From Anaerolineae bacterium (GTDB lineage: Bacteria > Chloroflexota > Anaerolineae > Aggregatilineales > Aggregatilineaceae): DNA of 64,000 nucleotides. The notes under the pieces were generated by a model. It worked only from the letters and a program-made list of their open reading frames with translations, was not told the DNA's origin and searched no databases. Location: positions 1-64,000 of the forward strand of contig JAHDLB010000045.1 in assembly GCA_018432315.1 (NCBI GenBank), given 5' to 3'. How positions within the stretch are numbered: position 1 is the first letter of the stretch; each line of letters starts with the position of its first letter. This document shows positions 11,210 through 63,184 of this stretch, piece after piece. The position numbers and the translations under genes are program-made.

Positions 11210-12073
11210 CTATCCTTTCACCGCGCCGGCCATCAGGCCGCGCACCAGGAAGCGCTGCAAGCCGATGAACAGGATCACAGTCGGGAGCGTCACCAGCACC
11301 GAGCCGGCGAACATATCGGACCATTTGTACTGGAACTCGCCGACGTAGGTCAGCAGGAAACCGGGCGGGATGGTGCGCATGTCGAGCCGGGTGGTCAGGC
11401 TCAGGGCGAACAGCAGGTTGTTCCAGGCGTTGAGGAACGAGAACAGCCCCACCGCGATCATCCCCGGGCGGATCAGCGGGATCACGATGCGCCACAGAAT
11501 GCCGATCCGGCTGCACCCATCGACGAACGCCGCCTCTTCGATCTCCTCCGGCACGCTCTCGCAAAAGCCGCGCAGCATCCACACGGAGAACGGGATGCTG
11601 AAGCTGGTGAAAGCCAGGATCAGCCCGGCGTAGGAGTCCAGCAGCTTGATCTCGCGGTAGAGCGAATACAGCGTGATCACGATGATCACCGCCGGGAACA
11701 TCTGCGACGCCAGGATGATCAGCAGCAGCGTCCGCTTGGCGCGGAAGCGCAGCCGCGCGAAAGCGTACCCGGCGGGCATCGCCACGATGATCGACACCAG
11801 CGCCGTGCCCAGCGACACGATCACGCCGTTCTGGAAATAGTTGCGAAAGCCGCTGCGGTCGTTGAGCTGCGTTTCGTAGTTCTTGAGCGTCACGGTTTCC
11901 GGTACCCACTTGGGCGGGACGGCGAAGGCGTCTTCGTTCGGCTTCAGGCTGGTCGAGAGCATCCAGAAGGTGGGGAAAAAGATGAACAGCATCATCACCA
12001 CCAGCAGGATCGCCATCGCCGTCGACTTGAAACGCGGGTACTGGTCCAGATCGAAGTCGAGTCGCGCGAGCAT
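11210..12073 (-). CDS. Sugar ABC transporter permease (MalG/UgpE type)
   Basis: The 287-aa inner-membrane protein has about six hydrophobic segments, beginning with MAILLVVMMLFIFFPTFWM. The cytoplasmic EAA loop is visible as EEAAFVDGCSRIG...IPL, the contact for the ATPase. It belongs to the CUT1 carbohydrate family, second-permease type. The start ATG lies 3 nt past the stop of the upstream permease, with GGAG inside that gene as ribosome site. No ATP-binding subunit is encoded in this cluster, so a shared MsmX/MalK-like ATPase elsewhere is expected. Confidence 0.9.
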   Translation of the reverse strand: MLARLDFDLDQYPRFKSTAMAILLVVMMLFIFFPTFWMLSTSLKPNEDAFAVPPKWVPETVTLKNYETQLNDRSGFRNYFQNGVIVSLGTALVSIIVAMPAGYAFARLRFRAKRTLLLIILASQMFPAVIIVITLYSLYREIKLLDSYAGLILAFTSFSIPFSVWMLRGFCESVPEEIEEAAFVDGCSRIGILWRIVIPLIRPGMIAVGLFSFLNAWNNLLFALSLTTRLDMRTIPPGFLLTYVGEFQYKWSDMFAGSVLVTLPTVILFIGLQRFLVRGLMAGAVKG

Positions 12074-47611: not shown

Positions 47612-47772
47612 GGTGTTGCCTATCTCTAACCAGTACCAAAACGTCTCCACTATACCATTTTATGCGCGGCGCCGCCCGTGACATACAGCATCTTTTTCCC
47701 CGGCGGGCACAGCCGCCCGGCGCGGTTATAATCGACTCATCACGATATCACAGGATGAAAGGATCGGAGCGG

Positions 47773-49371
47773 ATGCGCAGGCTGTGGCGCACGACCGTCT
47801 GGCCGGCGCTGGGCGCCGTGCCGCTGGGCGTCAAAATCATGGGCATCGTCGTCTTTCCCATGGTGGTGATGGGCGGCGCGGTGATGCTCTACGCCCGCGA
47901 CGAGATTCTGGCGCTGGCCCGCCCGGCCCCCATCTACGACGACCTGTACGCGCTGCTCACACAGCGGCTGGCGTTGACCGTCGGCGTGCTGGCCGTTGCC
48001 GGGATCGCGCTGGCCCTGGGCCTGAGCTACATCCTCGTGCGCCCCCTGCGCCAGCTTCTGGACGTCATCCGCCGGGTGGAAAACGGCGATCTCTCGGCGC
48101 GGGTGCCCGTCTGGGCGTCCGACGAGATCGGGCAGGTGCAGGGCGCGTTCAACCGCATGACCGGAGAGTTGGAGCGCTCGCTCGGCGCGCTGGCCCGCCG
48201 CAACGACGAGCTGGCCGGGCTGGACGTGCTGTCCGAGTGGATCGCGCTCAACCAGGACCTGGACCGCGTGCTGGAGCGGGCGCTGGACCGGATCGCGGGC
48301 CTGATGGACAGCGACGTCGGCACGCTCCACCTGCTGGAGCCGGACGGCAGATTTTTGCGCGAGCGCGTGGTGCGCGGGCAGATGTCCGACGCGCTGGCGG
48401 ATGCCTCGCGCCGCATCCGCACCGGGGAAACGCCGCTGCGCCAGGCGCTCGTCCAGCAGCGACCGGTCGCGCTGGACGACGTGAGCGCCGCGCCGGAGCT
48501 TCCCGCCGAAACCGCCGCGGCCCTGCGGAAGGAGGGCTTCGGGGCCTGGGCGTCGGCGCCGCTGGTGGTCCGCGGCCAGGTGATCGGGACGATCAGCCTC
48601 GCGCGCCGCACCAACCGCCCCTTCGGCCCGGACGATCTGCGGCTGCTGGGCATGATCGGCAACGTGATCGGGACGGGCGTCGCCAACGCCCAACTCGTCG
48701 CCGACCTGCGCCACAAGGAAACCGAGCTGCGCTGGGCGCTGCAAAAGTCCGTCCAGGCCCAGGAGGAGGAGCGCCGCCGGCTGGCGCGCGAGCTGCACGA
48801 CGAGGCGGGCCAGGCCCTGACCGCGATTCTGATCCGGCTCCACACCCTGCAAAGCGAGTCCGACCCCGAAACCATCACCAGCCGGATCGAGGGGCTGCGC
48901 CTGCTGACCATGCAGACGCTCGACGACCTGCGGCGGCTGTCGATGGACCTGCGCCCGGCGGCGCTGGACAGCCTGGGCCTGCTGCCGACGCTGCGCTGGT
49001 ACATCGACCAGTGCGCGCGCAGCACGGACCTGCCGATCACGTTCTACAGCCCGGATGACCTGGAACGCCTGCCCACCGAGATCGAGGTCGCGCTGTACCG
49101 CATCGCCCAGGAAGCGCTGACCAACGCCATCCGCCACAGCGGGGCCGGGGCGATCGACGTGCTGCTCGAGCGCCAGCCGGCGGCGATGTGGCTGACCATC
49201 AGCGACGACGGGCGCGGCTTCGACCCGGCGGAGGCAGGGCACAGCGGCCTGGGCCTGATCGGCATCCGCGAGCGGGTCGGCGCGCTCGACGGCACCCTGA
49301 CGCTGGAGACGGCGCCCGGCGCCGGGACGCGCCTGTCGGTTCAGATTCCCTTGAAGGAGGTGCCGCTGTGA
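47773..49371 (+). CDS. NarX-like sensor histidine kinase (HAMP-GAF-HisKA_3)
   Basis: A 532-aa kinase from the ATG at 47773, nine nt after AAAGGA. Two membrane helices (about 20-40 and 65-90) enclose a very short outer loop. HAMP (LVRPLRQLLDVIRRVENGDL), GAF (about 155-305), HisKA_3 with phospho-acceptor His in RRRLARELHDEAGQALTAIL and a HATPase (EALTNAIRHSG, DDGRGFDPAE, GLGLIGIRERV) follow. It lacks a real periplasmic sensor domain, so the signal may be cytoplasmic or via the GAF domain. The response-regulator start overlaps its stop, forming a cognate pair. Confidence 0.92.
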   Translation: MRRLWRTTVWPALGAVPLGVKIMGIVVFPMVVMGGAVMLYARDEILALARPAPIYDDLYALLTQRLALTVGVLAVAGIALALGLSYILVRPLRQLLDVIRRVENGDLSARVPVWASDEIGQVQGAFNRMTGELERSLGALARRNDELAGLDVLSEWIALNQDLDRVLERALDRIAGLMDSDVGTLHLLEPDGRFLRERVVRGQMSDALADASRRIRTGETPLRQALVQQRPVALDDVSAAPELPAETAAALRKEGFGAWASAPLVVRGQVIGTISLARRTNRPFGPDDLRLLGMIGNVIGTGVANAQLVADLRHKETELRWALQKSVQAQEEERRRLARELHDEAGQALTAILIRLHTLQSESDPETITSRIEGLRLLTMQTLDDLRRLSMDLRPAALDSLGLLPTLRWYIDQCARSTDLPITFYSPDDLERLPTEIEVALYRIAQEALTNAIRHSGAGAIDVLLERQPAAMWLTISDDGRGFDPAEAGHSGLGLIGIRERVGALDGTLTLETAPGAGTRLSVQIPLKEVPL

Positions 49372-50015
49372 TCGACGGGATGCGCATTCTGCTGGTGGAC
49401 GATCACGCCGTCGTGCGCAGCAGCCTGGGCGTGCTGCTGGCGTCGCATGGGGCGCAGGTCGTCGGCGAGGCTGCCGATGGGGCGACGGCGGTCGCGCTGG
49501 CGCTCGAACTGCGCCCGGACATCATCCTGATGGACATCACCCTGCCCGACATGGACGGCGTCCAGGCGACGCGGGCGATCTGCGCGGAATGGCCGGGCGC
49601 CCGCATCCTGGCGCTGACCATGCACAGCGAGGAGCTGTACCTCGTGCCGTTCCTGGAGGCGGGCGGGGTGGGATACGTCCAGAAATCCGTCGCCGATCAC
49701 GAGGTCCTGCAGGCGATTCAGCGCATCTACCAGGGCGAGACGTTCATCCACGAGGACGGCGTCGACGCGCTGATCCGCCAGCACCGGCCCGCCAGCCCGC
49801 CGGACGACGCGCCGGGACCGGAGGTCCTCTCGGAGCGCGAGCGCGCCGTGCTCGAACAGACGGTGCGCGGCTACACCAACCGCGAGATCGCCGCCCAGTT
49901 CCACATCAGCCCGCGCACGGTGGACACCTACCGCGCGCGCGTCATGGAGAAGCTGGGCCTCAACCACCGCCACGAGCTGGTCGATTACGCGCTGCGCCAC
50001 CGCCTGCTCGATTGA
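49368..50015 (+). CDS. NarL/FixJ family response regulator
   Basis: The 215-aa product starts at the GTG at 49368, seven nt after AAGGAGG; the ATG at 49380 is less well spaced. The receiver has acidic pair LLVDDHAVVRSSL, phospho-acceptor Asp in IILMDITLPDMDG and Lys in GYVQKSVAD. The C-terminal LuxR-type helix-turn-helix is visible in LSERERAVLEQTVRGYTNRE and HISPRTVDTYRARVMEKLGL. It is paired with the kinase at 47773 and sits 131 bp upstream of the receiver-fused molybdoenzyme, which is a likely target. Confidence 0.95.
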   Translation: MIDGMRILLVDDHAVVRSSLGVLLASHGAQVVGEAADGATAVALALELRPDIILMDITLPDMDGVQATRAICAEWPGARILALTMHSEELYLVPFLEAGGVGYVQKSVADHEVLQAIQRIYQGETFIHEDGVDALIRQHRPASPPDDAPGPEVLSERERAVLEQTVRGYTNREIAAQFHISPRTVDTYRARVMEKLGLNHRHELVDYALRHRLLD

Positions 50016-50146: not shown

Positions 50147-53068
50147 ATGCCCTTCACCCGACCATCACCCGACACGAACCCCGCGCCGCCCGTCAAGATC
50201 GTGGTGGCCGTGCGCAATCGCTGCCTGTACGACACGCTCGCCCAGATTTTGGGGCGCGTGTCTCCCCCGCCGGACCTGGTCCGCGCGACATCCCCCGCCG
50301 ACATCTGCGCGGCGGTGGCGGAGCGTCCCGCGCTGATCGTGGCCGACCCGTTCGCGCTGCTCGAAGCGCACGCGCTCCACGAGCTGCACACGCTCAAACG
50401 CTGCGCGGGAGTCACGCCGCTGCTGGCGCTGCTCCCGGCGGACACGCGGGAATACCGCGACGTCGCGGTGCGGTTGGGCGCCAACGGGGTCGTCGTCGTC
50501 GAGCGCTCGGCGACCGACCTGCTGCCGGCGGTCGAGCGCCTCTTGCAGCCCGCGCCCCTGGTCGATGGTGTGGCGCGGCGCATTTCATCCACCGCCCGGC
50601 ACAGCGCGCCCGCCGGCGAGGCCGCCTATTTCGAAGCGTCCGGCGACCTGAGCCACCTGGAGAATCTCACCCGGCGCACGGTGGAAGCGCTCGATCCGGC
50701 GCTGGGCATAGCCGGCGCGCCCCCCGTCTCCGACGCCGGCAGCCTGTCGCCCGACGGCGGGCGCACGTTTCTGCGCGGGCTGACGCTCACGGCGGCGGCG
50801 CCGTCCGGCACGGCGGGCCAGCCGTGGCACGCGCGCACGGCGTGTAACCTCAACTGCGGCGCGCACTTCTGCGGGCTGGACGTGACCGTGCGCGACGGCC
50901 AGATCGTCAAGATCGAGCCGGCGGACTTCCCCGACGATCGCTACCGGCGCGTCTGCCTGAAGGGGATCAGCTACGTGCAGATGGTCGCCCATCCGGACCG
51001 GCTGACGCACCCGCTCAAGCGGATCGGCCCGCGCGGCGAAGGGCGCTGGGAGCGGATCTCGTGGGAGCGCGCCCTGGACGAGATCGCGGCCCGACTGCAA
51101 CGCACGATCGACGCGCACGGCGCGGAAAGCCTGATGTTCTTCCCCTATTCCGGCCAGTTGAGCGCCCTCAACGGCATGAGCGGGGTGTATCTGCGCCTCG
51201 CCAGCCTGTTGGGCGCGTCCGCCACCGATCTCAACCAGTTCGGGCTGGACAGCGCCGTGCCCAGCGGCATTCAGGACACGTTCGGGACGGGCACGGGCTA
51301 TCTGGCGAACGACTACGCCGACCTGCCGAACTCGCGGCTGGTGTTGATCTGGGGCGCCAACCCGGTGCACAGCCGGATGAACTGGTGGCCGTTCTTCCTC
51401 GACGCCAAACGGAGCGGGACGGCGCTGATCACGATCGATCCCCGCTACAGCGCGACCGCGGCCAAGAGCGACGCGTGGCTGCCGATCCGTCCGGGCGCGG
51501 ACCTGTACCTGGCGCTGGCCCTGCTGAACGTCATCGTCGCGCGCGACTGGATCGACCGGGAGGCCGTGCTGGGGCACACCGTCGCCCCGCTGCTGGTCCG
51601 CGACGACGACGGGCGCTACCTGCGCGGGGCAGGCGACAGCCCGCTGGCGTGGGACGAAGCCCAGGCGCGCGCGGTCCCGGCGGCGGCGGCGCGCCAGCCC
51701 GCCCTGAGCGGCGTGTACAGCGTCAAGGGGGTGACCTGCCGCCCGGCTTACGCCCTGCTGCGCGATATGCTGGCGCCCTACACGCCGGACGCCGTGGCGG
51801 ACAAGGTCGGGCTGGGGGCGGCGCGCATCGTCGAGCTGGCCTACCGCTACGCCACGACCAAACCGGCGCGCATCTTCACGCTCTACGGGATCGACCGCTG
51901 GCACCACGGCGCGACGTTCGGGCGGCTGATCGCCACGCTGGCGGCGCTGACCGGCAACGTGGGCCTTCCCGGCGGCGGCGCGGGCGTGGATGGCTTTTGC
52001 GAGGGCGCCCTGTTCGTCAGCGATTTCACCTACCCGGACGGCAAAGCGTACCGGCCCCTCAACCCGGCGGGCCTGCCCGGCCAGATTTTGTCCGGCCACC
52101 CGCACCCGATCAAAGCGGTGATGGTCGCCTTCAACAACTGGCTCAACCAGTGGCCCGATCAAACCCGCATGTGCCAGGACGTGCTGCCCCGGCTCGACCT
52201 GCTGGTGACCGCCGATCACTTCATGACCGAGACGGCGCGCTGGTCGGACTACGTGCTGCCCGCGGCGATGCTGTTCGAGCGCGAGGACATGGTCAAGGGG
52301 CCGGGCCCGTTCGTCCAGTACCAGCCCGCCATCGTGCCGCCGCCCGGCGAGTGCCGCTCGGACATGGCGATTGCCGCCGGGCTGGCCGAGCGGCTGGGCC
52401 TGGGCGACTATTTCGCGCGTCCCACCATCGAGTACCTGGACGAGGTGCTCGCCAGCAGCGGGCCGGAGACGGCAGGGCTGTCGGCGCGGAACCTGCGCGA
52501 GCGGGGCGTGCTGCGCAAAAACGTGCCCGACGCGCCGCCGGTCGCGCACGCCGGGGGCCGCTTCTCCACCCCGTCCGGGCGCATCGAGTTCTACGTCGAG
52601 CGGCTGCTGCCCTACGGGCGCGCCCTGCCGGACTACGAGCCGCCCGTCGAGGCGCACCCCGGCGGCAGGTTGGCGCGGCGCTTCCCGCTCGTCTGCCTGA
52701 CCGAGCACAGCCGCTACCGCGTGCATTCCACCTTCGGGAACGTCCCGTGGCTGCGCGAGCTGGACCGCGAGCCGGAAGCCCTGCTCCACCCGTCGGAGGC
52801 GCGCTCGCGCGGGATCGCCAACGGCGACCTGGTGCGCATTTTCAACGACCGGGGCTACGTCGTGCTGCGGGCCCGGTTGAGCCAGGCCGCGCCGCCCGGC
52901 GCAGTGTATCTCACCCAGGGATGGCAGTCGCGCGATTTCCTGGAGGGCCATCCCCAGTCGCTGACTCACGACCGGGTCAACCCGGCCAACGCGCTGGGGC
53001 CCAACTGCTCGTTTTCGGACGTGCTGGTCGAGATCGCCAAAGAGAGGTACGAGCATGTCCCGCGCTAA
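50147..53068 (+). CDS. Molybdopterin oxidoreductase with N-terminal degenerate receiver-like domain
   Basis: The 973-aa product has residues of about 16-134 that follow the five-strand response-regulator receiver pattern: VKIVVAVRNRCLYDTLAQIL, PALIVADPF, TPLLALLPADTREYRDVAVR, LGANGVVVVERSATDLLPAV. The acidic pair is V22/R23, Asp67 occupies the acceptor position, and the Thr and Lys are lost. After a linker, the DMSO-reductase-family catalytic chain starts near 228, with a [4Fe-4S] motif C233, C237, C242, C270, RISWERALDEIAARL, LIWGANPVHSRM and DPRYSATAAKSDAWLPIRPG. The probable Mo-ligand region is DLNQFGLDSAVPSG (Ser). There is no twin-arginine signal, so the enzyme should be cytoplasmic. It overlaps the Fe-S subunit gene by 14 bp. 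Substrate unknown. Confidence 0.85.
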   Translation: MPFTRPSPDTNPAPPVKIVVAVRNRCLYDTLAQILGRVSPPPDLVRATSPADICAAVAERPALIVADPFALLEAHALHELHTLKRCAGVTPLLALLPADTREYRDVAVRLGANGVVVVERSATDLLPAVERLLQPAPLVDGVARRISSTARHSAPAGEAAYFEASGDLSHLENLTRRTVEALDPALGIAGAPPVSDAGSLSPDGGRTFLRGLTLTAAAPSGTAGQPWHARTACNLNCGAHFCGLDVTVRDGQIVKIEPADFPDDRYRRVCLKGISYVQMVAHPDRLTHPLKRIGPRGEGRWERISWERALDEIAARLQRTIDAHGAESLMFFPYSGQLSALNGMSGVYLRLASLLGASATDLNQFGLDSAVPSGIQDTFGTGTGYLANDYADLPNSRLVLIWGANPVHSRMNWWPFFLDAKRSGTALITIDPRYSATAAKSDAWLPIRPGADLYLALALLNVIVARDWIDREAVLGHTVAPLLVRDDDGRYLRGAGDSPLAWDEAQARAVPAAAARQPALSGVYSVKGVTCRPAYALLRDMLAPYTPDAVADKVGLGAARIVELAYRYATTKPARIFTLYGIDRWHHGATFGRLIATLAALTGNVGLPGGGAGVDGFCEGALFVSDFTYPDGKAYRPLNPAGLPGQILSGHPHPIKAVMVAFNNWLNQWPDQTRMCQDVLPRLDLLVTADHFMTETARWSDYVLPAAMLFEREDMVKGPGPFVQYQPAIVPPPGECRSDMAIAAGLAERLGLGDYFARPTIEYLDEVLASSGPETAGLSARNLRERGVLRKNVPDAPPVAHAGGRFSTPSGRIEFYVERLLPYGRALPDYEPPVEAHPGGRLARRFPLVCLTEHSRYRVHSTFGNVPWLRELDREPEALLHPSEARSRGIANGDLVRIFNDRGYVVLRARLSQAAPPGAVYLTQGWQSRDFLEGHPQSLTHDRVNPANALGPNCSFSDVLVEIAKERYEHVPR

Positions 53069-53684
53069 ATACTACGTCATGATCATCGACCTGCAAGCCT
53101 GCACCGGCTGCGATACGTGTTCCGTCGCCTGCAAGCAAGAGAACAACCTGCCGGAAGACGTCTGGTGGACGCGCGTCATCACCGTGAGCGCGAACGGCGA
53201 GGCGAACAACGGCCACGCCTATCCGGACGTGCGCCTGGACTACCTGCCGCTGGGCTGCCAGCACTGCGCCGAAGGCCCGTGCGTGGACGTCTGCCCGACT
53301 GCCGCGACCTACCGCCACCCGGAGTTCGGCTTCGTGATGCAGGACCCCAGCCTGTGCATCGGCTGCCGGTACTGCACGATCGTCTGCCCGTTCACGGGCG
53401 TGCGCGTGTATGCGCAGGACCAGCCGCGCTACGCGCTGCCCTTTCCGACCGGCGACAACGCCATCGTTCACCGCGCCCAGACGGTCGAAAAGTGCACGTT
53501 CTGCGCCCACCGGCTGGCCCAGGGCCTGGAACCGGCGTGCGTGGTGGCGTGCCCGACGCGCGCGCGCACGTTCGGCGATCTCAACGATCCGGACAGCGCG
53601 GTAGCCGAGCTGCTGCGCACGCGCGCGCACTTCCAGCTTCTGCCCGAAAAGGGCACTGAGCCATCGGTGTACTACCTGACATGA
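53055..53684 (+). CDS. Four-cluster [4Fe-4S] electron-transfer subunit (DmsB/NrfC family)
   Basis: The 209-aa ferredoxin-like beta subunit of the molybdoenzyme encoded just upstream has its start inside that gene's last codons. Four cysteine groups are visible: CTGCDTCSVACK, CQHCAEGPCVDVCP, CIGCRYCTIVCP and CTFCAHRLAQG followed by PACVVACP. These carry four [4Fe-4S] clusters between the quinone/partner side and the Mo site. Its stop overlaps the TorD-like gene (ATGA). No anchor subunit follows, unlike the dms operon downstream. Confidence 0.94.
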   Translation: MSRAKYYVMIIDLQACTGCDTCSVACKQENNLPEDVWWTRVITVSANGEANNGHAYPDVRLDYLPLGCQHCAEGPCVDVCPTAATYRHPEFGFVMQDPSLCIGCRYCTIVCPFTGVRVYAQDQPRYALPFPTGDNAIVHRAQTVEKCTFCAHRLAQGLEPACVVACPTRARTFGDLNDPDSAVAELLRTRAHFQLLPEKGTEPSVYYLT

Positions 53685-54391
53685 GCGAAGAACAGCGCCT
53701 TCACAGCGCAAGCCCGCGCACCCGATCGTTCGCCATCCTGGCCCGCGTCGCCCACTTCCGGAGCCAGCTTTACCGCTGGCTGGCGCTGGGATTCTTCCCC
53801 CCGGACGACGCACTGGCCGGCGCACTGGAGTCCGGCGCGATGCTGGACGAGATGAACGCCGCCACGCTCTGGCTGGGCGACGACCGGGCGCGGCTGGCGG
53901 CGGGCCTGGACGAGATCGACCGCCTGGGACCAGTCGCGCTGGGAACGCTCCAGGCGGATTACGAGCGGTTCTTCGGCAAGAGCGTCGACCGCGTGCCCGA
54001 TCGCGAATCGGCTTACCGCTGGCGCGACGTGTCGGACGTGGTGGGCGCGTCCGGCGACGTGGCGCGCGCGCTGCGCCAGCAGTACCGCCAGTGCGGTGCG
54101 GCAGCGGCGGCGCCGGGCAGCGAGGATCACGTCGCCGTCGAGCTGGAGTTCATGGCCTACCTGTGCGCGCGCGAGGCCGGGGCGTGGGGCGCCGAAACGC
54201 CCGAAACGGCGCGCCAGCTCCGGCGCCAGCAGGGCAACTTTCTCGACGATCACCTGGGGCGCTGGCTGCCCGACTTCTGCCGCCAGATCGAGGGGCGCCG
54301 GGGCGAGTCGTTCTACATCTGCCTGGCGCGGCTGTGCGATAGCTGGATGCGCATCGAGCACGGGCCGGGCTACGTGGCAGGGAGCCGGTGA
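53681..54391 (+). CDS. TorD/DmsD-like molybdoenzyme chaperone
   Basis: A 236-aa all-helical protein of the TorD family. Landmarks are the N-terminal RSQLYRWLALGFFPPDDAL, LQADYERFFGKSV and the conserved DHVAVELEFMAYLCAREAG at about 147-166, then NFLDDHLGRWLPDFCRQIE. Such chaperones bind apo-molybdoenzymes and help cofactor insertion. Here the client has no Tat signal, so the role would be maturation rather than export proofreading. It overlaps the Fe-S gene by four bases and the kinase gene by one. Confidence 0.92.
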   Translation: MSEEQRLHSASPRTRSFAILARVAHFRSQLYRWLALGFFPPDDALAGALESGAMLDEMNAATLWLGDDRARLAAGLDEIDRLGPVALGTLQADYERFFGKSVDRVPDRESAYRWRDVSDVVGASGDVARALRQQYRQCGAAAAAPGSEDHVAVELEFMAYLCAREAGAWGAETPETARQLRRQQGNFLDDHLGRWLPDFCRQIEGRRGESFYICLARLCDSWMRIEHGPGYVAGSR

Positions 54392-56301
54392 TGCTGGCGG
54401 TCTATTTTGCTTACGGGCTGGCGTTCTTTGCCCTGGGCGGGGCGGCCCTGCTGGAAGGACGCCAGTCGAGCAAGCTGTCGCTGGGGCGACAGCTTCCCTG
54501 GCTGGCCGCGTTCGGGTTCACGCACAGCCTCGTCGAGTGGTGCGACATGTTCCTGCTGGCATCGATCGCGCCCGAAGTCGAGGCGGCGCTGCTGGCGGCC
54601 CGGACGATCCTGCTGCCCGTGTCGGCCCTGCTGCTGATCCGTTTCGGCGCGGGGCTGGTGGGCGAGGTGGGGCCGCTGCCGGGCTGGGTGCCCTACGCGC
54701 GGGTGGTGCTGCTCACGCCGGTCACCCTGATCGTGGCCTACGCGCTGGTTGTCGTGCTCACCGAGGGCCAGACGGCCACCGGCGCGGACGTCTGGTCGCG
54801 CTACCTGCTGTTTTTTCCGGGCGGGCTGCTGGTGGCCTTCGGGTTCTTCCGTCACTGGCGGCGGCTACCGCACACGGGCCTGCTGGGGACGCACTATTCG
54901 CTGTTGGGCGCGGGCGTGGCCTTCACGCTGTACGCCATCGTGGCCGGGCTGATCGTGCCCGAAACGTCGTATGGCCTGTCGCCCTGGCTGAACGACGAGG
55001 CGATTCGGGACGCAACCGGCCTCCCGGTCCAGGTCTGGCGGATGGCGGTGGCGCTGGTGGTGATGGCGTCGGTCGTCCGCGCGATGGGCGTCTTCAGCGC
55101 CGAGCGCGAGCAGCAGCTCGCCCGGCTGCGCGCCGAGCGCGAACGCGCCCAGGCCGACGCGCTGGCCGCCCAGCGTGACGCGCGCCACATGGCCGAAGCC
55201 TGGATCGAGACGCTGGTCCAGATCACCCGCCAGATCGCCATGCTCGAAGGGCTGGACCAGGTGCTGGCCCAGATCGTCGAGCGGGCGCGAACGCTGCTGG
55301 GGGCCGATGCGGCGGCGCTGGCGCTGTGGGACGAAACCGGCGACGCGCTCATCGTCAAGGCGTTTGCCGGGCCGGACGGCGGCGGCATGGAGTCGCTGCG
55401 CAGCGACACGATCCGGTCGGGCGTGATTTTCGACCACACCCGCGCCCGCCAGATGCGCTTGCTGGCGCCCGGCGAGGGCTGGCGCTGCTCGGTGCTGGAC
55501 GCGCGCGTCCAGGCCGGGGCCATCGCGCCGCTGGTTTTCGAGGAGGAGTCGGTGGGCGTGCTGTGGGTGGTCAGCCGCCAGCCGGACCGGTTCAGCCAGG
55601 GCGATCTCGACCGGCTGGGCCACCTGAGCGACCAGGCTGTGATCGCGATCCAGCACACGCTGATGGCCGGGCGGCTGCAATCGCTGGCGGTCATCGAGGA
55701 GCGCGCGCGCATCGCCCGCGAGATGCACGACGGGCTGGCGCAGATTCTCGGCTACCTGAGCCTGGAGGTGCAGACGCTCGACGCGCTGGTGCGCCAGGGC
55801 GACACTGAGGCGACCCTCGGCGAGCTGCGGCAGGCGCGCGAGCGGATCACCGCCGCCCAGGCGGACGTGCGCGAGAACATTCTCAGCCTGCGCACCACCC
55901 TGGCCGGCGATGCCGGGCTGATGCCCGCGCTGGAACGGTACGTCGAGGAGTTCAGCGTCCAGACCGGGATCGACGCGCACGTCGCGAGCGAAATCGACGC
56001 CAGCCGGCTGTCGCCCCTGGCCGAGACGCAGTTGGTGCGTATCGTGCAGGAAGCGCTGGCGAACGTGCGCAAGCACGCCGCCGCCCGCCAGGTCCAGATC
56101 CGGCTGGTGGCGCGCGACGGGTGCCTGGGCGTGACGGTCACCGACGACGGCGTCGGCTTCGACCGCGTGCCCAACGGGACGCATTTCGGGCTGCAAACGA
56201 TGCGCGAGCGCGCCGAGAGCGTCGGCGGCGGGCTGACCGTGACATCGGTCCCCGCCAAAGGGACGCAGGTGACCTTCTGGCTGCCGCTGGCCCAGCCGTG
56301 A
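54391..56301 (+). CDS. Sensor histidine kinase: 7TM-GAF-HisKA_3 (NarX/DegS-like)
   Basis: The 636-aa product starts at the ATG at 54391, six nt after AGGGAG and overlapping the chaperone stop. About 1-230 has seven hydrophobic segments (AVYFAYGLAFFALGGAALLE, ARVVLLTPVTLIVAYALVVV and others). A coiled-coil-like linker rich in Arg/Glu (EREQQLARLRAERERAQADA), a GAF domain (about 285-430), HisKA_3 with His in RARIAREMHDGLAQILGYLS, and a HATPase (EALANVRKHAA, DDGVGFD) follow. It is co-transcribed with the molybdoenzyme genes and followed by its response regulator, so it may report membrane redox or quinone state; this is inferred. Confidence 0.9.
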   Translation: MLAVYFAYGLAFFALGGAALLEGRQSSKLSLGRQLPWLAAFGFTHSLVEWCDMFLLASIAPEVEAALLAARTILLPVSALLLIRFGAGLVGEVGPLPGWVPYARVVLLTPVTLIVAYALVVVLTEGQTATGADVWSRYLLFFPGGLLVAFGFFRHWRRLPHTGLLGTHYSLLGAGVAFTLYAIVAGLIVPETSYGLSPWLNDEAIRDATGLPVQVWRMAVALVVMASVVRAMGVFSAEREQQLARLRAERERAQADALAAQRDARHMAEAWIETLVQITRQIAMLEGLDQVLAQIVERARTLLGADAAALALWDETGDALIVKAFAGPDGGGMESLRSDTIRSGVIFDHTRARQMRLLAPGEGWRCSVLDARVQAGAIAPLVFEEESVGVLWVVSRQPDRFSQGDLDRLGHLSDQAVIAIQHTLMAGRLQSLAVIEERARIAREMHDGLAQILGYLSLEVQTLDALVRQGDTEATLGELRQARERITAAQADVRENILSLRTTLAGDAGLMPALERYVEEFSVQTGIDAHVASEIDASRLSPLAETQLVRIVQEALANVRKHAAARQVQIRLVARDGCLGVTVTDDGVGFDRVPNGTHFGLQTMRERAESVGGGLTVTSVPAKGTQVTFWLPLAQP

Positions 56302-56357: not shown

Positions 56358-57023
56358 ATGCGAGCCTTACCTTTGAGAGTGCTGGTTGCCGACGATCACC
56401 GCCTGTTCCGGCAGGGGCTGATCAGTCTGATGAACACGCGCCGCGATCTCGTCGAGGTGATCGGCGAGGCCGAGACGGGCCGCGAGGCGATCACGCTGGT
56501 CGAGCGCTGCCGCCCCGACGTCGTGCTGATGGACATCAAGATGCCGGACGTGGACGGGCTGCAGGCGGCGGTGCACATTCGCCGGTCCTTCCCCGCCGTG
56601 GACGTGATCATGCTGACCGCCTCGGAGCTGAACGAGCACGTGTACGAAGCGGTGCGGCTGGGCGCGGCGGGCTACCTGCTCAAGAGCCTGGACGCCGTCG
56701 AGCTGTTCGACCTGCTGCAGGCGGTCGCCGCTGACGAGGCCGTCCTGACGCGGGCGGTTGCCGCGCGCCTGCTGCGCGACATCGGCGACAGCGGGGGCGT
56801 GGGCGGCGAGATCGGCGGCGAGGCGCTCACCGAGCGCGAGATCGAGGTGCTCAACCTGGTGGCCCACGGCGCCAGCAACCCGCAGATCGCCGGCAGCCTG
56901 TGCATCACCGTGAACACGGTCAAGGTCCATCTGCGCAACATTCTGTCGAAGCTCCAGGTCGAAAACCGCACGCAGGCCGCGGCGCTGGCCGTTCAATCCG
57001 GTCTCATCCAGCCGCCATCCTAA
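56358..57023 (+). CDS. NarL family response regulator
   Basis: The 221-aa product starts at the ATG after GAAAGAGGGG. The receiver domain is intact: LVADDHRLFRQGLISLM (acidic pair), VVLMDIKMPDVDGLQ (acceptor Asp) and GYLLKSLDA (Lys). The LuxR-type helix-turn-helix is seen in LTEREIEVLNLVAHGASNPQ and CITVNTVKVHLRNILSKLQV. It is the partner of the kinase at 54391-56301. It sits immediately before the dms operon, whose upstream region has an 18-bp palindrome that may be its binding site. Confidence 0.95.
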   Translation: MRALPLRVLVADDHRLFRQGLISLMNTRRDLVEVIGEAETGREAITLVERCRPDVVLMDIKMPDVDGLQAAVHIRRSFPAVDVIMLTASELNEHVYEAVRLGAAGYLLKSLDAVELFDLLQAVAADEAVLTRAVAARLLRDIGDSGGVGGEIGGEALTEREIEVLNLVAHGASNPQIAGSLCITVNTVKVHLRNILSKLQVENRTQAAALAVQSGLIQPPS

Positions 57024-57061: not shown

Positions 57062-57180
57062 GTGGGCCGGTGGGGTGGCATAGTACGCTAGTAACGTCTG
57101 GCGAGGCGTTTCGCCCGGCCAACACATCACTGAGCGTATCACAGCAAGGATTGAGACTATGGTTAATGGAGGAGCGTCAC

Positions 57181-59616
57181 ATGGGTGAGCAAAACTTCCT
57201 CGTGAACGCCGTGACCAACACAGTCCTCAACCGGCGCAGCTTCCTCAAGTGGAACGCGGCGTTGGGGGGGACGGCTGTGCTGGCGAAAGGCGGCCTGTCG
57301 TTCGGGCTGGAAAAATCCGACAAGGCAGCCGCCCAGGCGGATGAGAAGATCGTTTGGAGCGCCTGCCTGGTCAACTGCGGCAGCCGCTGCCCGCTGCGCC
57401 TGCACGTGCGCGATGGCGAGATCGTGCGGGTCGAGACCGACGACACCGGCGATGCCGAATACGGCACGCACCAGCTCCGCTGCTGCGTGCGTGGCCGGTC
57501 GATCCGCCAGCGCGTCTACAACCCCGACCGGCTCAAATACCCGATGAAGCGCGTCGGCAAGCGCGGCGAGGGCAAATTCGAGCGCATTTCCTGGGAAGAG
57601 GCGTACGACACCATCGCCAGCGAGCTGCAGCGCATCATCGATGAATACGGCAACGAAGCCGTGTACATCAACTATGCGACCGGCGCGCTGGGCGGCACCG
57701 TCGCCAAGTCGTGGCCGCCTGGGTCAAGCCCCATCGCCCGCCTGATGAACTGCGTGGGCGGCTACCTGAACCACTACGGCACCTACAGCTCGGCCCAGAT
57801 GTCGACCGCCATGCCCTACACCTATGGCAGCCGCAGCAGCAACAGCATCGAAGACATCATCAACACCAAGCTGGTCGTCATGTTTGGCAACAACATCTGC
57901 GAAACGAGCATGGGCGGCGGTGGCGGTAAGGTTTTCGCCCTGCAGGCCATGAAAGAGCAGAGCGGCGCCAAGTTCATCCTGTTCGACCCGCGCTACAGCG
58001 AAACCGCGGTGTCGGTGGTGGACGAGTGGATTCCGATCCGGCCCGGCACGGACGCGGCGCTGGTGGCGGCTATGGCGTACGTCATGATCACCGAGGACCT
58101 GCACGACCAGGAATTTCTCGACGAGTACTGCGTCGGGTTCGATGAAGATCACATGCCCGAAGACGTGCCCGCCGGCCTGTCGTACAAGTCCTACGTGATG
58201 GGCGACGGCGAAGACGGCATGCCCAAGACGCCCGAATGGGCCGCCAAGATCACCGGTGTGCCCGCCGAAACCATCGTGCGCGTGGCGCGCGAGATCGCCC
58301 TCACCAAGCCGTGCTTCATCACCCAGGGCCTCGGCCCGCAGCGCCAGGCGAACGGCGAGCAGAACTGCCGCGCCATCGCCATGCTGCCGATCCTGACCGG
58401 CAACGTGGGCATTCACGGCGGCAACACCGGCGTGAGCGAAGGCGGGTACGGCATCCGCGTGATGGGCTTTCCCACGCTCGACAACCCGGTGAAAGCGTCG
58501 ATCTCGGTCTTCATGTGGTACGAGGCCATCCTGCGCGGCGCCGAAATGACCGCCCTGGCCGACGGCGTGCGCGGCGTGGACCAGCTCCCTGCGCCGATCA
58601 AGTTCATGTGGAACTACGCGGGCAACACCATCGTCAACCAGCACTCGGACTCGAACGCGACGGTCAAGCAGTTGGAAGACGACTCGCTGTGCGAGATGAT
58701 CGTCGTCATCGAAAACCACATGACCCCCAGCGCCAAGCTGGCCGACATCCTGCTGCCCGACATCACCAACTTCGAGCAGAACGAGATCACCAGCGGCAGC
58801 GCGGGTAACACCGGCTACGCGATCGCGCTCAGCCAAGCGATCGAGCCGCAGTTCGAATGCCGCCCGATCTACGAGATGTGCGCCGAGATCGCCAAGCGGC
58901 TGGGCGTCGAAGAGGAATTCACCGAGGGCCGCACGCACGACGAATGGCTGGAGTGGGTGGTCGAAGAGACGCGCAAGAACAACCCCGACTTCCCGGACTA
59001 CGAAACGTTCCGCGAGATGGGCATCTACAAGGTGACCAACCCCGGCGAGCCGTCGGTGGCCTATGCGGACTTCCGCGAAGACCCGGAAGCCAACCCCCTC
59101 AGCACGCCGTCGGGCAAGATCGAGATCTTCTCGAAGGATCTGTACGACATCGCCAACACCTGGGAAATTCCGGAAGGCGACGTCATCACCGGCATCCCCG
59201 TGTACGCGGCGACCTGGGAAGGCTACGAAGATCCGCTGCGCGAGAAATACCCGCTGCAAATGATCGGCCACCACTACAAGGCGCGCACGCACTCCAGCTA
59301 TCACAACGTGGAATGGCTGCGCAAGGCGGCGCCCCAAGAGGTGTGGATGAACCCGCTCGACGCGGAAGAGCGCGGCCTGGAACTCGGCGACATGGTGCAT
59401 GTCTACAACGATCGCGGCAGGCTCAAGCTGCCGGTCAAGGTGACGCCGCGCATCGCGCCCGGCGTGATCTCGGTGCCCCAGGGCGCGTGGTACGAGCCCA
59501 ACAAGGACGGGGTCGACGAAGGCGGCTGTGTGAACACACTGACGGCGTTGCGGCCTTCACCGCTGGCGAAAGCCAACCCGCAGCATACCAACCTGGTCCA
59601 GGTTGAGAAGGCGTAG
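57181..59616 (+). CDS. dmsA: Tat-exported DMSO reductase-type molybdopterin oxidoreductase, catalytic subunit
   Basis: The 811-aa product starts at the ATG at 57181, six to seven nt after GGAGGAG; an upstream frame extension to 57070 is rejected. The twin-arginine signal NRRSFLKWNAALGGTAVL is at residues 17-34. The [4Fe-4S] site has C62, C66, C70 and a Cys at 101/102. MGD-binding phrases are KLVVMFGNNICETSMGG, LFDPRYSETAVSVVDEWIPI, GGNTGVSEGG and the C-terminal MIGHHYKARTHSSYHNVEWL. LNHYGTYSSAQMS matches the Ser-ligand region of DmsA. Length and layout match DmsA (about 780-815). It reduces DMSO, TMAO or a related terminal acceptor outside the membrane; exact substrate uncertain. Confidence 0.92.
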   Translation: MGEQNFLVNAVTNTVLNRRSFLKWNAALGGTAVLAKGGLSFGLEKSDKAAAQADEKIVWSACLVNCGSRCPLRLHVRDGEIVRVETDDTGDAEYGTHQLRCCVRGRSIRQRVYNPDRLKYPMKRVGKRGEGKFERISWEEAYDTIASELQRIIDEYGNEAVYINYATGALGGTVAKSWPPGSSPIARLMNCVGGYLNHYGTYSSAQMSTAMPYTYGSRSSNSIEDIINTKLVVMFGNNICETSMGGGGGKVFALQAMKEQSGAKFILFDPRYSETAVSVVDEWIPIRPGTDAALVAAMAYVMITEDLHDQEFLDEYCVGFDEDHMPEDVPAGLSYKSYVMGDGEDGMPKTPEWAAKITGVPAETIVRVAREIALTKPCFITQGLGPQRQANGEQNCRAIAMLPILTGNVGIHGGNTGVSEGGYGIRVMGFPTLDNPVKASISVFMWYEAILRGAEMTALADGVRGVDQLPAPIKFMWNYAGNTIVNQHSDSNATVKQLEDDSLCEMIVVIENHMTPSAKLADILLPDITNFEQNEITSGSAGNTGYAIALSQAIEPQFECRPIYEMCAEIAKRLGVEEEFTEGRTHDEWLEWVVEETRKNNPDFPDYETFREMGIYKVTNPGEPSVAYADFREDPEANPLSTPSGKIEIFSKDLYDIANTWEIPEGDVITGIPVYAATWEGYEDPLREKYPLQMIGHHYKARTHSSYHNVEWLRKAAPQEVWMNPLDAEERGLELGDMVHVYNDRGRLKLPVKVTPRIAPGVISVPQGAWYEPNKDGVDEGGCVNTLTALRPSPLAKANPQHTNLVQVEKA

Positions 59617-59630
59617 AGGAGGTAAACAGC

Positions 59631-60251
59631 ATGGCTAACCAGCTTGCATTCTATTTCGACGTAGCGCGCTGCACCGGCTGCAAAGCATGCCAGGTCGCGT
59701 GCCAGGACAAGCACGACCTCCCCGCCGACATGCGCTGGCGGCGGGTGGCGGAATACAGCGGCGGCGAGTGGGTTCGCAACCAGGACGGGTCGTTCACGCA
59801 GAACGTGTTCGCGTACTACGTGTCGGTTGCGTGCAATCACTGCGAAAAACCGATCTGCCAGGAAGTGTGCCCGGCCAGCGCGATCACCAAGCGCGACGAT
59901 GGCATCGTGCTCATCGACGAAGACAAGTGCATCGGCTGCCGGTACTGCGAGTGGGCCTGCCCCTACGCGGCCCCGCAGTTCGACGAAGACTCGGGCACGA
60001 TGAGCAAATGCACGTTGTGTGTCGACTACATCGACGCGGGCCAGCTTCCGGCCTGTGTGGCGGCCTGCCCGTCGCGCGCGCTGGAAGTGGGCGAGTTGAG
60101 CGAGCTGCGCGCCAAGTACGGCGATCTCGCCGAAGTGGCGCCGTTACCCGAAGCAAAACTGACTGAGCCTGCCATGATCATCAAACCGAACGCCAAGACG
60201 AAACCCGTTCTGGCGAAGGCGGGCCGGCTTGCCAACCCGGAGGAGGTTTAA
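59631..60251 (+). CDS. dmsB: DmsB-type four-cluster [4Fe-4S] subunit
   Basis: A 206-aa electron-transfer subunit, ATG after GAGGAGG, 14 bp behind dmsA. Cysteine groups in order: CTGCKACQVACQDKHDLP, CNHCEKPICQEVCP, CIGCRYCEWACP and CTLCVDYIDAGQLPACVAACPS. The opening NQLAFYFDVARCTGCKACQ is very close to E. coli DmsB. It passes electrons from the DmsC quinol site to the Mo centre and is exported with DmsA by the twin-arginine route. Confidence 0.95.
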   Translation: MANQLAFYFDVARCTGCKACQVACQDKHDLPADMRWRRVAEYSGGEWVRNQDGSFTQNVFAYYVSVACNHCEKPICQEVCPASAITKRDDGIVLIDEDKCIGCRYCEWACPYAAPQFDEDSGTMSKCTLCVDYIDAGQLPACVAACPSRALEVGELSELRAKYGDLAEVAPLPEAKLTEPAMIIKPNAKTKPVLAKAGRLANPEEV

Positions 60252-60253
60252 TC

Positions 60254-61177
60254 ATGGACGTTCGCGAGTGGGCGCTGATAGCATTCACGATTCTCAGCCA
60301 GATGGCGGTAGGCTCGTTCATTATCCTCGGCATCGTCTACTTCTTCGCCGCGCGCAAGTGGGGCGAGGAAGAGGCTGACCGGCTGAGCGACCGCGCGCTG
60401 CTGGCGATCGGGCCGGTCCTGGTGCTGGGCACGCTGGCCTCGCTGTTCCACCTGGGCAACCCGCTGAACGCCTACCGGGCGATCGCCAACGTGGGATCGT
60501 CGTGGCTCAGCCGCGAGATTCTCGCCAACGTGCTGTTCATCGGCGTGGGCGCGGTCTTCGCCTTCATGCAGTGGCGCAAGATCAGCACCTCGGCCACGCG
60601 GAACGTCGTCGCGCTGGTCGCGGCGGCCATCGGCGTGGTGCTGGTCTTCAGCATGTCGCAGATTTACATGCTGCGCACCGCCCCGGCCTGGGACACCATC
60701 GCCACCCCGATCACGTTCTTCACCACGACGTTCCTGCTGGGCGCGCTGGCAGTGGGGGCGGCCTACGTCGCCAACTACGCCTACGTCCAGCGCAAGGAGC
60801 CGGGCTGCGCCGATACGCAGTGCGAGATCATGCGCAGCACGCTGCGCTGGCTGGCGCTGGCGTCGGTGGTCCTGGTGGGCGTGCACCTGGTCGTCCTGCC
60901 GCTGTACGTGGCCTATCTCGCCAGCAGCGACGTGGCCGCGGCCAACGACGCGGTCAACGTCCTGATGGGCGACTACGGCGTGGTGTTCGCGCTGCGGCTG
61001 GTGCTGGTCTTCGTGGGCGCGGGCATCCTGGGCGCGTTCCTATATCGCAACGCCAGCAGCCCGGGCCGCGAGAAAATCCTGGGCAACCTGGCTTACGCCG
61101 CGTTCGCGGTGGTGCTGGTGGCCGAGGTGATGGGGCGCTTCCTGTTCTACGCCATGCAGACACGCATCGGCTTGTAG
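60254..61177 (+). CDS. dmsC: DmsC-type membrane anchor and quinol-oxidising subunit
   Basis: The 307-aa polytopic protein has eight predicted membrane helices (EWALIAFTILSQMAVGSFII first, GVVFALRLVLVFVGAGILGA late). The phrase LFHLGNPLNAYRAIANVGSS with SWLSREIL is diagnostic of the DmsC family. It starts after AGGAGG two bases past the dmsB stop. It anchors DmsAB and takes electrons from menaquinol. The conserved acid/His residues for quinol binding cannot be assigned with certainty here. Confidence 0.93.
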   Translation: MDVREWALIAFTILSQMAVGSFIILGIVYFFAARKWGEEEADRLSDRALLAIGPVLVLGTLASLFHLGNPLNAYRAIANVGSSWLSREILANVLFIGVGAVFAFMQWRKISTSATRNVVALVAAAIGVVLVFSMSQIYMLRTAPAWDTIATPITFFTTTFLLGALAVGAAYVANYAYVQRKEPGCADTQCEIMRSTLRWLALASVVLVGVHLVVLPLYVAYLASSDVAAANDAVNVLMGDYGVVFALRLVLVFVGAGILGAFLYRNASSPGREKILGNLAYAAFAVVLVAEVMGRFLFYAMQTRIGL

Positions 61178-61972: not shown

Positions 61973-63184
61973 ATGCTGGCGGCGATCGAGCGTTTCGCGC
62001 ACGTTGACGGCGCCGCGATCGCGTTCGATCCGGAGCGGTGCCTGCGCGCGCGGGACCGGTTTTCGACGTGCGACCTGTGCGCGGCGCGCTGCCCGGCGGG
62101 GGCGGTGCGCGTCGAGGACGGCGGCGCCGCCTTCGACCCGGCGGCCTGTGCCCTGTGCGGGCTGTGCCTGCACCTGTGCCCGGTCGGCGCGTTCGCGGGC
62201 GACACCGGCGCCAACGACATCCTGCGCTGCGCCGCGCAGATCGACGACCTGGACGCACTCGAGCTGATCTGCCCGGCGCATCCGGCCCCGGCCACCGGCC
62301 CCGCCCGGATCGACGCGGCGATCGGCCATGCCGGCTGCCTGGCGTCACTGGGGCCGTCGGCGTATATCAGCCTGATGGCTTGCGGGCTTTCGCGCGTGGC
62401 GGTCCGCCTGGACGCCTGCCACGAATGCCCGCTGAGCCAGGTGGCAGCAGACATCCGGCAAACGATCGACAAGGCACGGCGCGTGCTGGCGTCGTGGGAC
62501 ATGGCCGGGCATGTGGACGTTGTAGAAGAAAGTTCGTCGGAGGATGGGCAGGCCCGCCCGGTCTACCCGGCCAGCCGCCCGCCGGTATCGCGGCGCAAGC
62601 TGTTCCGGCGCCTCACGTCCGCCCCCACCGAGACGATCGACGCAGCCCTGCTCGTGGACGAAGCGCCGTCACCCGCGAAGAGACAACTCCCCGCCGAGCG
62701 CCGCCGCCTTTTGCACGCGCTGGACCTGCTGCCACCTGTCCCCCCGACCGCGTTGTGCCCCGCGCCGGACGCCGGGCAGGCGTTCGTGCTGCTGGGCGTA
62801 GACGAGCGCTGTACCGCCTGCGGGGTGTGCGCGCACGCCTGCCCCACCGGCGCGCTCGACGTGATCTACGACGACGAGTTGCGTTGTTTCGAGATTCAGT
62901 TCGAGCCGCGCGCGTGTACCGGCTGCGAGGCGTGCCTGCACGTCTGCGACCCGGCGGCGCTGCACTGGCGGCGCGTGCCCCTGTTCCGCGAGTTCCTGGC
63001 GGCGGGGCCGGGCCGGGTCCATCGCGGCGTGTTCCACGTGTGCGAGGACTGCGGCGCGCGCTTTGCGGGCGAGCCGTCGGCGCGGGGCTTCTGCCCGACG
63101 TGCGACTTTCGGCGGCAAAATCCATTCGGGTATAAGATTCCCCCCAGAATGCTCGAACGCCGTGTGGAGGTGCGCCAGGACTGA
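61973..63184 (+). CDS. Polyferredoxin-like [4Fe-4S] protein with C-terminal zinc-ribbon-like motif
   Basis: A 403-aa soluble protein, 3 bp behind the chaperone. The N-terminal ferredoxin pair has CDLCAARCPAGAV and CALCGLCLHLCPVGAF. The middle part has scattered cysteines (GCLASLG, LMACGLSRVAVRLDACHECP). The second pair lies near the C-terminus: CTACGVCAHACPTGAL and CTGCEACLHVCDPAAL. The end carries CEDCGARF...CPTCDFRR, a four-Cys zinc-ribbon-like arrangement. The linker from about 185 to 260 is low-complexity. Similar polyferredoxins accompany molybdoenzymes as electron carriers or maturation factors; the exact role is unknown. Cytoplasmic: no signal peptide. Confidence 0.8.
   Translation: MLAAIERFAHVDGAAIAFDPERCLRARDRFSTCDLCAARCPAGAVRVEDGGAAFDPAACALCGLCLHLCPVGAFAGDTGANDILRCAAQIDDLDALELICPAHPAPATGPARIDAAIGHAGCLASLGPSAYISLMACGLSRVAVRLDACHECPLSQVAADIRQTIDKARRVLASWDMAGHVDVVEESSSEDGQARPVYPASRPPVSRRKLFRRLTSAPTETIDAALLVDEAPSPAKRQLPAERRRLLHALDLLPPVPPTALCPAPDAGQAFVLLGVDERCTACGVCAHACPTGALDVIYDDELRCFEIQFEPRACTGCEACLHVCDPAALHWRRVPLFREFLAAGPGRVHRGVFHVCEDCGARFAGEPSARGFCPTCDFRRQNPFGYKIPPRMLERRVEVRQD

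Follow-up and report, generated by a model that had tools for sequence, protein, structure and literature searches.

The 64,000-nucleotide stretch of DNA analysed here (the window; positions 1 to 64,000 of contig JAHDLB010000045.1, assembly GCA_018432315.1, from an Anaerolineae bacterium of the family Aggregatilineaceae) encodes, at 50147–53068 on the forward strand, a fusion protein of 973 amino acids (aa). A receiver-fold domain that has lost its key catalytic residues, a pseudo-receiver, is joined in it to a complete catalytic chain of the dimethyl sulfoxide (DMSO) reductase family. The open reading frame begins with ATG and has zero internal stops. A histidine kinase (HK1) and a NarL-type response regulator (RR1) are encoded directly upstream. 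With a probability of about 0.5, the protein may act as a cytoplasmic 'regulatory molybdoenzyme' that feeds its state into HK1–RR1 via the pseudo-receiver, the neighbouring dmsABC operon being the likely output. The parts of the fusion are the following.

50147–50548, forward strand: pseudo-receiver, residues 1–134 (profiles, AlphaFold model, alignment of ten homologues).
50549–50755, forward strand: linker, residues 135–203, with a conserved SAPAGEAA-like stretch; the predicted helices are of low confidence.
50756–50782, forward strand: GGRTFLRGL, residues 204–212, a possible decayed twin-arginine translocation (Tat) signal, suggested by motif comparison.
50834–53068, forward strand: DMSO-reductase-family catalytic chain, residues 230–973 (Pfam, alignments to PDB entries), with four cysteines for an iron–sulfur (Fe–S) cluster and the candidate molybdenum (Mo) ligand D368.

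Residues 1–134 belong to the receiver superfamily by fold and profile similarity, as a first-pass annotation, made by a model from the sequence alone, had proposed for the N-terminal ~134 residues. Residues 1–229 of the window copy give zero Pfam matches, and a PDB search with the single window N-terminus returned chance-level matches only, including one response regulator at E 1.6. Seven of the ten aligned members match PF00072 at E ≤1 (best 2.1e-5), the window copy being among the non-matching ones. A profile of four N-terminal sequences, run against other genomes of the class, matches receivers at E 1e-8 to 1e-12 among the matches listed; 22 loci matched by it (L019–L040) are receiver sequences on inspection by eye. 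By hhalign, the profile of residues 1–134 is related to five local response regulators with 96.5% probability (E 7.9e-10). The ten-sequence profile finds solved response regulators in the PDB (E 6.9e-10, 4e7o). An AlphaFold model of residues 1–232, built on a three-sequence alignment (mean predicted local distance difference test score, pLDDT, 57.9; 52–84 per ten-residue block over residues 11–130), has five beta-alpha units in the order b1-a1-b2-a2-b3-a3-b4-a4-b5-a5. Foldseek and VIA-align return response regulators for this model, the best being 1nxt (Z 16.0, root-mean-square deviation 2.1 over 113 residues). The 50 best structural matches (Z 14.7–16.0) are, every one, receivers by title or chain name, and the kinase–receiver complexes 3dge, 3gl9 and 5uht are among the top ones. 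The predicted fold is CheY-like, the outcome on which the annotation had made its proposal depend.

A wrongly assigned start codon is rejected: the N-terminal extension is coding-like, with a G + C content at third codon positions of 0.91 (enzyme part 0.94, upstream gap 0.58), and is conserved in eight orthologues. An internal second start with a ribosome-binding site, sought between residue 116 and the Fe–S domain, is found in none of the 8 window-type genes. Origin of the domain from RR1 by duplication is unsupported. Pseudo-receivers, RR1 and the response regulator RR2, encoded downstream, form separate groups in a quick receiver tree supported by the Shimodaira–Hasegawa-like approximate likelihood ratio test (SH-aLRT 88, 99 and 99, respectively; no bootstrap). 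The best four receivers outside the pseudo-receiver group are short single-domain frames, scoring ≤64 bits vs at least 164 bits for the pseudo-receivers.

None of the ten aligned pseudo-receivers retains the acid pair that closes b1, the b4 Thr or the b5 Lys, so that the losses noticed in the window copy extend to the whole group. In L005 just one acid of the pair is present, the second, and the Lys position holds Arg. The acceptor position is occupied by Asp in five members, Glu in two (L014, L015), Thr in two (L017, L018) and Ala in one (L016). D67 is present in the window copy, as annotated; with Asp in just 5 of the 10 it is not a conserved feature, and the importance implied for it is unsupported. 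Residues 1–134 are thus a pseudo-receiver: a receiver by computation, with the key catalytic residues lost. On the same residues (acid pair, Thr and Lys gone in 10/10, acceptor Asp in 5/10) a phosphorylatable receiver is rejected.

Columns that eight or all nine of the HK1–RR1-linked members preserve are counted as conserved; there are 21. Eleven hold I, L, A or P and lie mostly in core strands and helices. The other ten are Q33, P68, F69, P97, T100, D102, Y103, R104, A106 and G111; eight of these surround the former active site, in a4 or in the b3–a3 or b4–a4 loop. Receivers in solved complexes with kinases turn this face to the kinase.

Residues 230–973 are a complete DMSO-reductase-family chain, as annotated. 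Molybdop_Fe4S4 (PF04879, residues 230–280), Molybdopterin (PF00384, 285–749) and Molydop_binding (PF01568, 849–946) are all over the cut-off and in family order. The best solved sequence relative is PDB 4ydd/5e7o, listed as a type II DMSO reductase subunit, which we take to be the perchlorate reductase PcrA. D368 is aligned with an Asp of 4ydd (alignment only) that is presumably the Mo ligand there. All eight fusions have D368 within an unvarying G-x-D-S-A-(V/I)-P-S-G. The chain scores 347.4 bits against the type II model TIGR03479, far under its cut-off of 984.75, and is therefore a relative, not a member, of the curated type II subfamily. Its solved relatives catalyse differing reactions, and no single substrate is indicated.

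The DmsA-type neighbours have intact Tat signals, (S/N)RRxF(L/I)K, and so has L007 (PF10518 match), the nearest receiver-less relative with a complete N-terminus. At the corresponding place before the Fe–S domain the fusions have (F/Y)L(R/K)GL in 7/8 and VLHGL in L009. A twin arginine at this Tat-like motif occurs in 0/8 fusions, in line with the annotated lack of a Tat signal. RR pairs stand elsewhere in residues 100–180 of some copies (144–145 and 176–177 in the window), with no Tat motif after them by eye. The short motif suggests that (F/Y)L(R/K)GL is a decayed Tat signal buried within the fusion, and the enzyme is probably cytoplasmic. L007 (G007:C3, ~2,235,700–2,238,500) is a Tat-type paralogue with an in-frame N-terminal extension of 80 residues, directly following a sigma-factor-like gene (by eye); AAGGAAA precedes an internal ATG and the Tat signal, and the extension could be a separate regulator translated in the same frame.

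The fusion is present in eight Anaerolineae genomes: G000 (the window), G007, G182, G186, G214, G249, G378 and the metagenome-assembled genome of L008. It is kept across several families, and the annotated extension is present in all eight close homologues. L009 and L011 are one sequence from two collections, counted once as G182. Repeats of the window or of a place counted before were left out (loci L001–L003, L011, L012, L049–L054, L057–L066, L068–L072). The catalytic frame of G249 breaks near residue 600, probably by an assembly error, and it is counted as a fusion by its N-terminal part; at that locus (L043, G249:C12) the molybdoenzyme match near 4530 and the next DmsA match at 11340–11420 each fall in two pieces, probably through sequencing errors. 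Among 396 genomes of the class, window-type fusions occur in 6 and a DmsA form, in which the pseudo-receiver precedes a DmsA, in 2 more (G230, G262), giving a pseudo-receiver in 8/396. Catalytic relatives at E 1e-90 in the same 396 genomes, with two candidates scored per genome, are found in six genomes at 64–100% identity, all of them fusions. A seventh relative, L067 (G332), is 38% identical, and its N-terminus is unseen because the 5' end is cut off. G086 has a 35% relative without the N-terminal extension. The fusion was found in 2 of 101 relatives, in 2/20, 2/201, 0/7 (two with the DmsA form) and 1/5 genomes in four order scans overlapping the class scan, and in 3/400 genomes of a phylum scan overlapping the others. 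Absences in the class, phylum and order-of-G186 scans are not firm because only the 2 to 15 top candidates of each genome were scored.

The neighbours of the fusion in the window are the following.

47662–49371, forward strand: histidine kinase HK1, 569 aa, with a hydrophobic N-terminal region, HAMP, GAF, HisKA_3 and HATPase (Pfam).
49368–50015, forward strand: NarL-type response regulator RR1, 215 aa (Pfam); the acid pair (DD), D, T and K are intact in the alignment.
53055–53684, forward strand: Fe–S electron-transfer subunit with 4Fe-4S dicluster domains, starting 14 nt inside the 3' end of the fusion gene.
53681–54391, forward strand: TorD-type chaperone (PF02613 match; TIGR03482 below cut-off).
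54388–56301, forward strand: histidine kinase HK2, with a polytopic N-terminus, GAF, HisKA_3 and HATPase (family searches).
56358–57023, forward strand: NarL-type response regulator RR2 (family searches, alignment).
57070–61177, forward strand: dmsA-dmsB-dmsC operon with an intact Tat signal, NRRSFLKW (TIGR02166 and TIGR02951 over cut-off; PF04976).

The two annotated kinase–regulator pairs flanking the fusion are real by Pfam. Genes overlap by 14 nt (fusion/Fe–S subunit), 4 nt (Fe–S subunit/TorD) and 4 nt (TorD/HK2). No membrane-anchor gene is present from HK1 to RR2 in the window. The order HK1–RR1–fusion–Fe–S subunit–TorD–HK2–RR2 is complete at six loci (the window, L008, L043, L044, L045 and L046), and 9/10 pseudo-receivers directly follow HK1–RR1. 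RR1 is 58–65% identical to the RR1 of other loci. Six HK1 orthologues are 391–437 aa long with two main hydrophobic regions in a simple hydropathy scan, vs 569 aa for the window HK1. The three scanned with Pfam (L008, L009, L045) are HAMP–HisKA_3–HATPase kinases in which Pfam finds no sensor domain, so that an input supplied by a partner is plausible. The window HK1 has an extra GAF between HAMP and HisKA_3, absent from these three. For the polytopic N-terminus of HK2 (54388–55080, ~230 residues) Pfam gives no match, yet all six HK2 orthologues compared conserve it.

In the window and in G249, G214, G378 and G186, RR2 is followed by dmsABC. In a DmsC family search of nine genomes, dmsC lies ~3–7 kb from RR2 or the pseudo-receiver in 8/9; in G182 it is on contig C1293, the same contig as the C-terminal piece of the enzyme. 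It is the sole dmsC found in the genome in four cases (G000, G186, G378, G262). The exception is G007, with dmsC genes ~190 kb or more from the locus. L008, outside the dmsC search, has a DmsA-like match (33% identity) 3 kb past RR2. The position of dmsABC makes it the probable regulatory target. The listed GTG start of the window dmsA, 57070, is far 5' of the Tat signal, and an internal ATG (MGEQNFLVNAV...) within 57070–57190 is the likelier start. A 403-residue ferredoxin-like protein with several Fer4 domains is encoded at 61973–63184; it is also found beside related clusters, right after RR2 in L045 and L047 and near RR2 in L046. Elsewhere in the same genome, a molybdopterin oxidoreductase frame (G000:C32:924–3044) has a single in-frame TGA, possibly for selenocysteine, as in formate dehydrogenases.

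Two natural variants lack one or the other side of the arrangement. In G007 (assembly 98% complete, 5% contamination, 5 contigs) HK1–RR1 is not found upstream of the fusion. The best RR1-like protein anywhere in this genome is just 45% identical, vs 58–65% for RR1 orthologues, so RR1 appears to be absent there; HK2–RR2 is kept (61% and 69%). The G007 pseudo-receiver is 20–26% identical to the other seven, which are 32–45% identical mutually, two close pairs aside. Its linker (28–37%) does not stand out, and in the enzyme part identity is 61–70% vs 67–75% for the others, which points to an acceleration specific to the pseudo-receiver. Of the 21 conserved columns G007 retains 11, all hydrophobic or small, and has lost the ten listed by residue above, most of which lie on one face; every other member keeps 18–21 of 21–25 columns in a leave-one-out count.

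In G230 and G262 dmsA'-dmsB-dmsC comes straight after HK1–RR1–pseudo-receiver, the HK1 being cut at the contig end. The window-type enzyme is not found in either genome: with all candidates scored, the best are 32–41% identical, vs at least 64% for orthologues. At these loci (L017, G230:C300; L018, G262:C5) the pseudo-receiver and a Tat-type DmsA' form a single open frame with no stop. DmsA' has its own AGGAGG and ATG ahead of the Tat signal, so that long and short products are possible. Its identity is 56–59% with the DmsA' found after RR2 in G214 and G249 and ~35% with the window DmsA. The two pseudo-receivers branch within the window-type ones, with L009 (SH-aLRT 85). From the in-frame DmsA', its identity to the RR2-following DmsA' and the tree placement, the arrangement fits a deletion reaching from where the pseudo-receiver ends to where dmsA' begins.

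The ratio of nonsynonymous to synonymous substitution rates (dN/dS) for domain vs enzyme is 0.13 vs 0.10 in L014/L015 and 0.12 vs 0.09 in L008/L013. The domain is constrained in these close window-type pairs; the distant pairs, with dS 1.3–3.4 and synonymous sites near saturation, say little.

From the domains, fold, conservation, gene order, residue losses and the pattern of co-loss we infer a cytoplasmic location, a docking partner, a direction of signal, a target operon and a part played by substrate, as follows. A respiratory, once Tat-exported relative of the type II DMSO reductases would have lost its signal peptide. With no anchor gene in its own cluster, the enzyme would stay in the cytoplasm with its Fe–S subunit and chaperone, carrying at its N-terminus a receiver presumably unable to be phosphorylated. 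The conserved face (P68 and F69 of beta3–alpha3; P97, T100, D102, Y103, R104 and A106 of the beta4–alpha4 loop and alpha4) would dock on HK1–RR1. The simplest docking site would be the phosphotransfer domain of HK1, the pseudo-receiver being a non-phosphorylatable mimic of RR1. The substrate or redox state of the enzyme would then tip the kinase/phosphatase balance of HK1 and so set the level of phosphorylated RR1, with the neighbouring dmsABC operon as the likely output. The pseudo-receiver is assigned to HK1–RR1 because 9/10 follow this pair, because it is kept with the pair when the enzyme is gone, and because its face is lost when the pair is gone. The first-pass suggestion that the domain ties the enzyme to a neighbouring two-component pair thereby gains indirect support; of the two candidates the linkage (9/10), and the loss in G007 despite the retention of HK2–RR2, point to the upstream pair (47662–50015). 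More tentatively, the molybdoenzyme may have been captured as a sensory subunit of this two-component system, the pseudo-receiver serving as a plug that presents the Mo/Fe–S centre to the upstream pair, so that dmsABC would follow redox or substrate state. If so, each half would have its natural knock-out: G007 has the plug but no socket, and its plug face is lost, while G230/G262 have plug and socket but appear to lack the enzyme.

Several observations weigh against the signalling role. The co-loss of HK1–RR1 and the face is one event, in G007, and the columns were divided into core and face by residue type and position, after the result was known. G230 and G262 come as fragmented assemblies (600 contigs, 90% complete, and 710 contigs, 87% complete, respectively), in which the enzyme might have been missed. 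Between them (L017/L018) the domain evolves faster than the enzyme (dN/dS 0.40 vs 0.14), perhaps a sign of decay. The two close window-type pairs still have dS 0.9–1.1, and the distant pairs are less clear (domain dN/dS 0.45 in window/L009, 0.22 in L009/L014, 0.17 in window/L016). HK2–RR2 is also conserved beside the fusion and could be the partner instead. The enzyme half looks catalytically intact, which fits an ordinary metabolic role too. The full-length AlphaFold model is of low confidence (pLDDT 36.5, predicted template modelling score 0.28) and was not used.

The domain could instead serve structure or oligomerisation in an ordinary cytoplasmic reductase and have no part in signalling, the kinase pairs simply regulating transcription of the operon. 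A CheY-like wing domain of this structural kind is known in inducible amino-acid decarboxylases, regulators of respiratory enzymes are often encoded adjacent to them, the enzyme domains are intact in the window with the candidate Mo ligand invariant in 8/8, and in G007 the domain remains fused without HK1–RR1. The same genome, however, has lost the conserved face with the pair while retaining the enzyme, and HK1–RR1–pseudo-receiver is retained where the enzyme is not found; a purely structural role is accordingly judged unlikely, while deserving serious weight. Signalling in the opposite direction, HK1 or HK2 docking on the pseudo-receiver and controlling enzyme activity or membrane recruitment, draws on the same gene linkage, and a kinase embedded in the membrane could hold a soluble enzyme in place there. 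The scanned HK1 orthologues, without a recognisable sensor domain, seem to need an input more than to supply an output, and the domain has no phosphorylation chemistry; this direction is improbable.

A fusion by accident, through loss of a stop codon, with a functionless N-terminal domain drifting, has in its favour the in-frame DmsA of G230/G262 with its internal ribosome-binding site, as after a deletion, the relaxed dN/dS there, and the value of 0.45 in the distant pair window/L009. It is rendered quite improbable by dN/dS of 0.12–0.13 in the two closest window-type pairs, by conservation of the fusion over several families, and by the lack of an internal start with a ribosome-binding site in 8/8 window-type genes. 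That the domain is a genuine, phosphorylatable receiver despite its unusual active-site residues is very improbable. Asp at the acceptor position in 5/10 might speak for it, but the acid pair, Thr and Lys are gone in 10/10 and the acceptor is E, A or T in the other five.

Pseudo-receivers are a recognised class, whose on/off control is called a mystery in the text available of a 2025 review (PMC12632262). FrzS, CikA, RitR and CmrT, as described in the accessible parts of PMC12632262 and PMC4395418, have a receiver fold without phosphotransfer residues, as in the fusion. CmrT is, like the fusion, encoded beside a complete kinase–regulator pair, and its binding to kinase or regulator is proposed in the same accessible text (PMC12632262, PMC4395418). 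The partner module of the fusion is a molybdopterin oxidoreductase, whereas the enzyme outputs named in those parts of the two papers are DsbA, pyruvate phosphate dikinase, HDOD and second-messenger enzymes (PMC12632262, PMC4395418); 'molybd' occurs in the main text of neither. In the HoxBC/HoxJ–HoxA system, by the portions available of PMC10073562 and PMC6978683, a cytoplasmic redox enzyme signals via a kinase and a regulator to the genes of the working hydrogenases. HoxBC is of another enzyme class and those portions mention no receiver domain (PMC10073562, PMC6978683), and the signalling step of the fusion is conjectural. PruR is a looser parallel: according to the accessible text of PMC13259868 it is a molybdopterin-oxidoreductase-like pterin sensor, some relatives of which are paired with sensor-kinase proteins. 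It differs in being of the sulfite-oxidase type and periplasmic, in having lost the Mo-ligand Cys, and, as far as that text goes, in having no receiver fused to PruR itself (PMC13259868). The type II reductase 4ydd/5e7o resembles the window chain in sequence and in the Asp aligned with D368; the window chain differs in its lack of a Tat signal, its N-terminal receiver and its score far under the TIGR03479 cut-off.

No report of a pseudo-receiver/molybdoenzyme fusion was found in the open-access papers searched, most subscription papers being outside the search. Within the literature searched, the receiver fold and the use of an enzyme as the sensor of a kinase are known already; the joining of a pseudo-receiver to a de-exported molybdoenzyme beside its probable signalling partner appears to be new. 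The arrangement in these Chloroflexota, where the fused domain is usually inherited along with a neighbouring sensor-kinase pair, suggests that what was once a respiratory enzyme may now serve as a sensor inside the cell. Since the pseudo-receiver is tied to a redox enzyme and a probable kinase pair, with loss variants in both directions, control of a pseudo-receiver becomes directly testable here. If the proposed role is true, the fusion would be a molybdenum counterpart to the regulatory hydrogenase.

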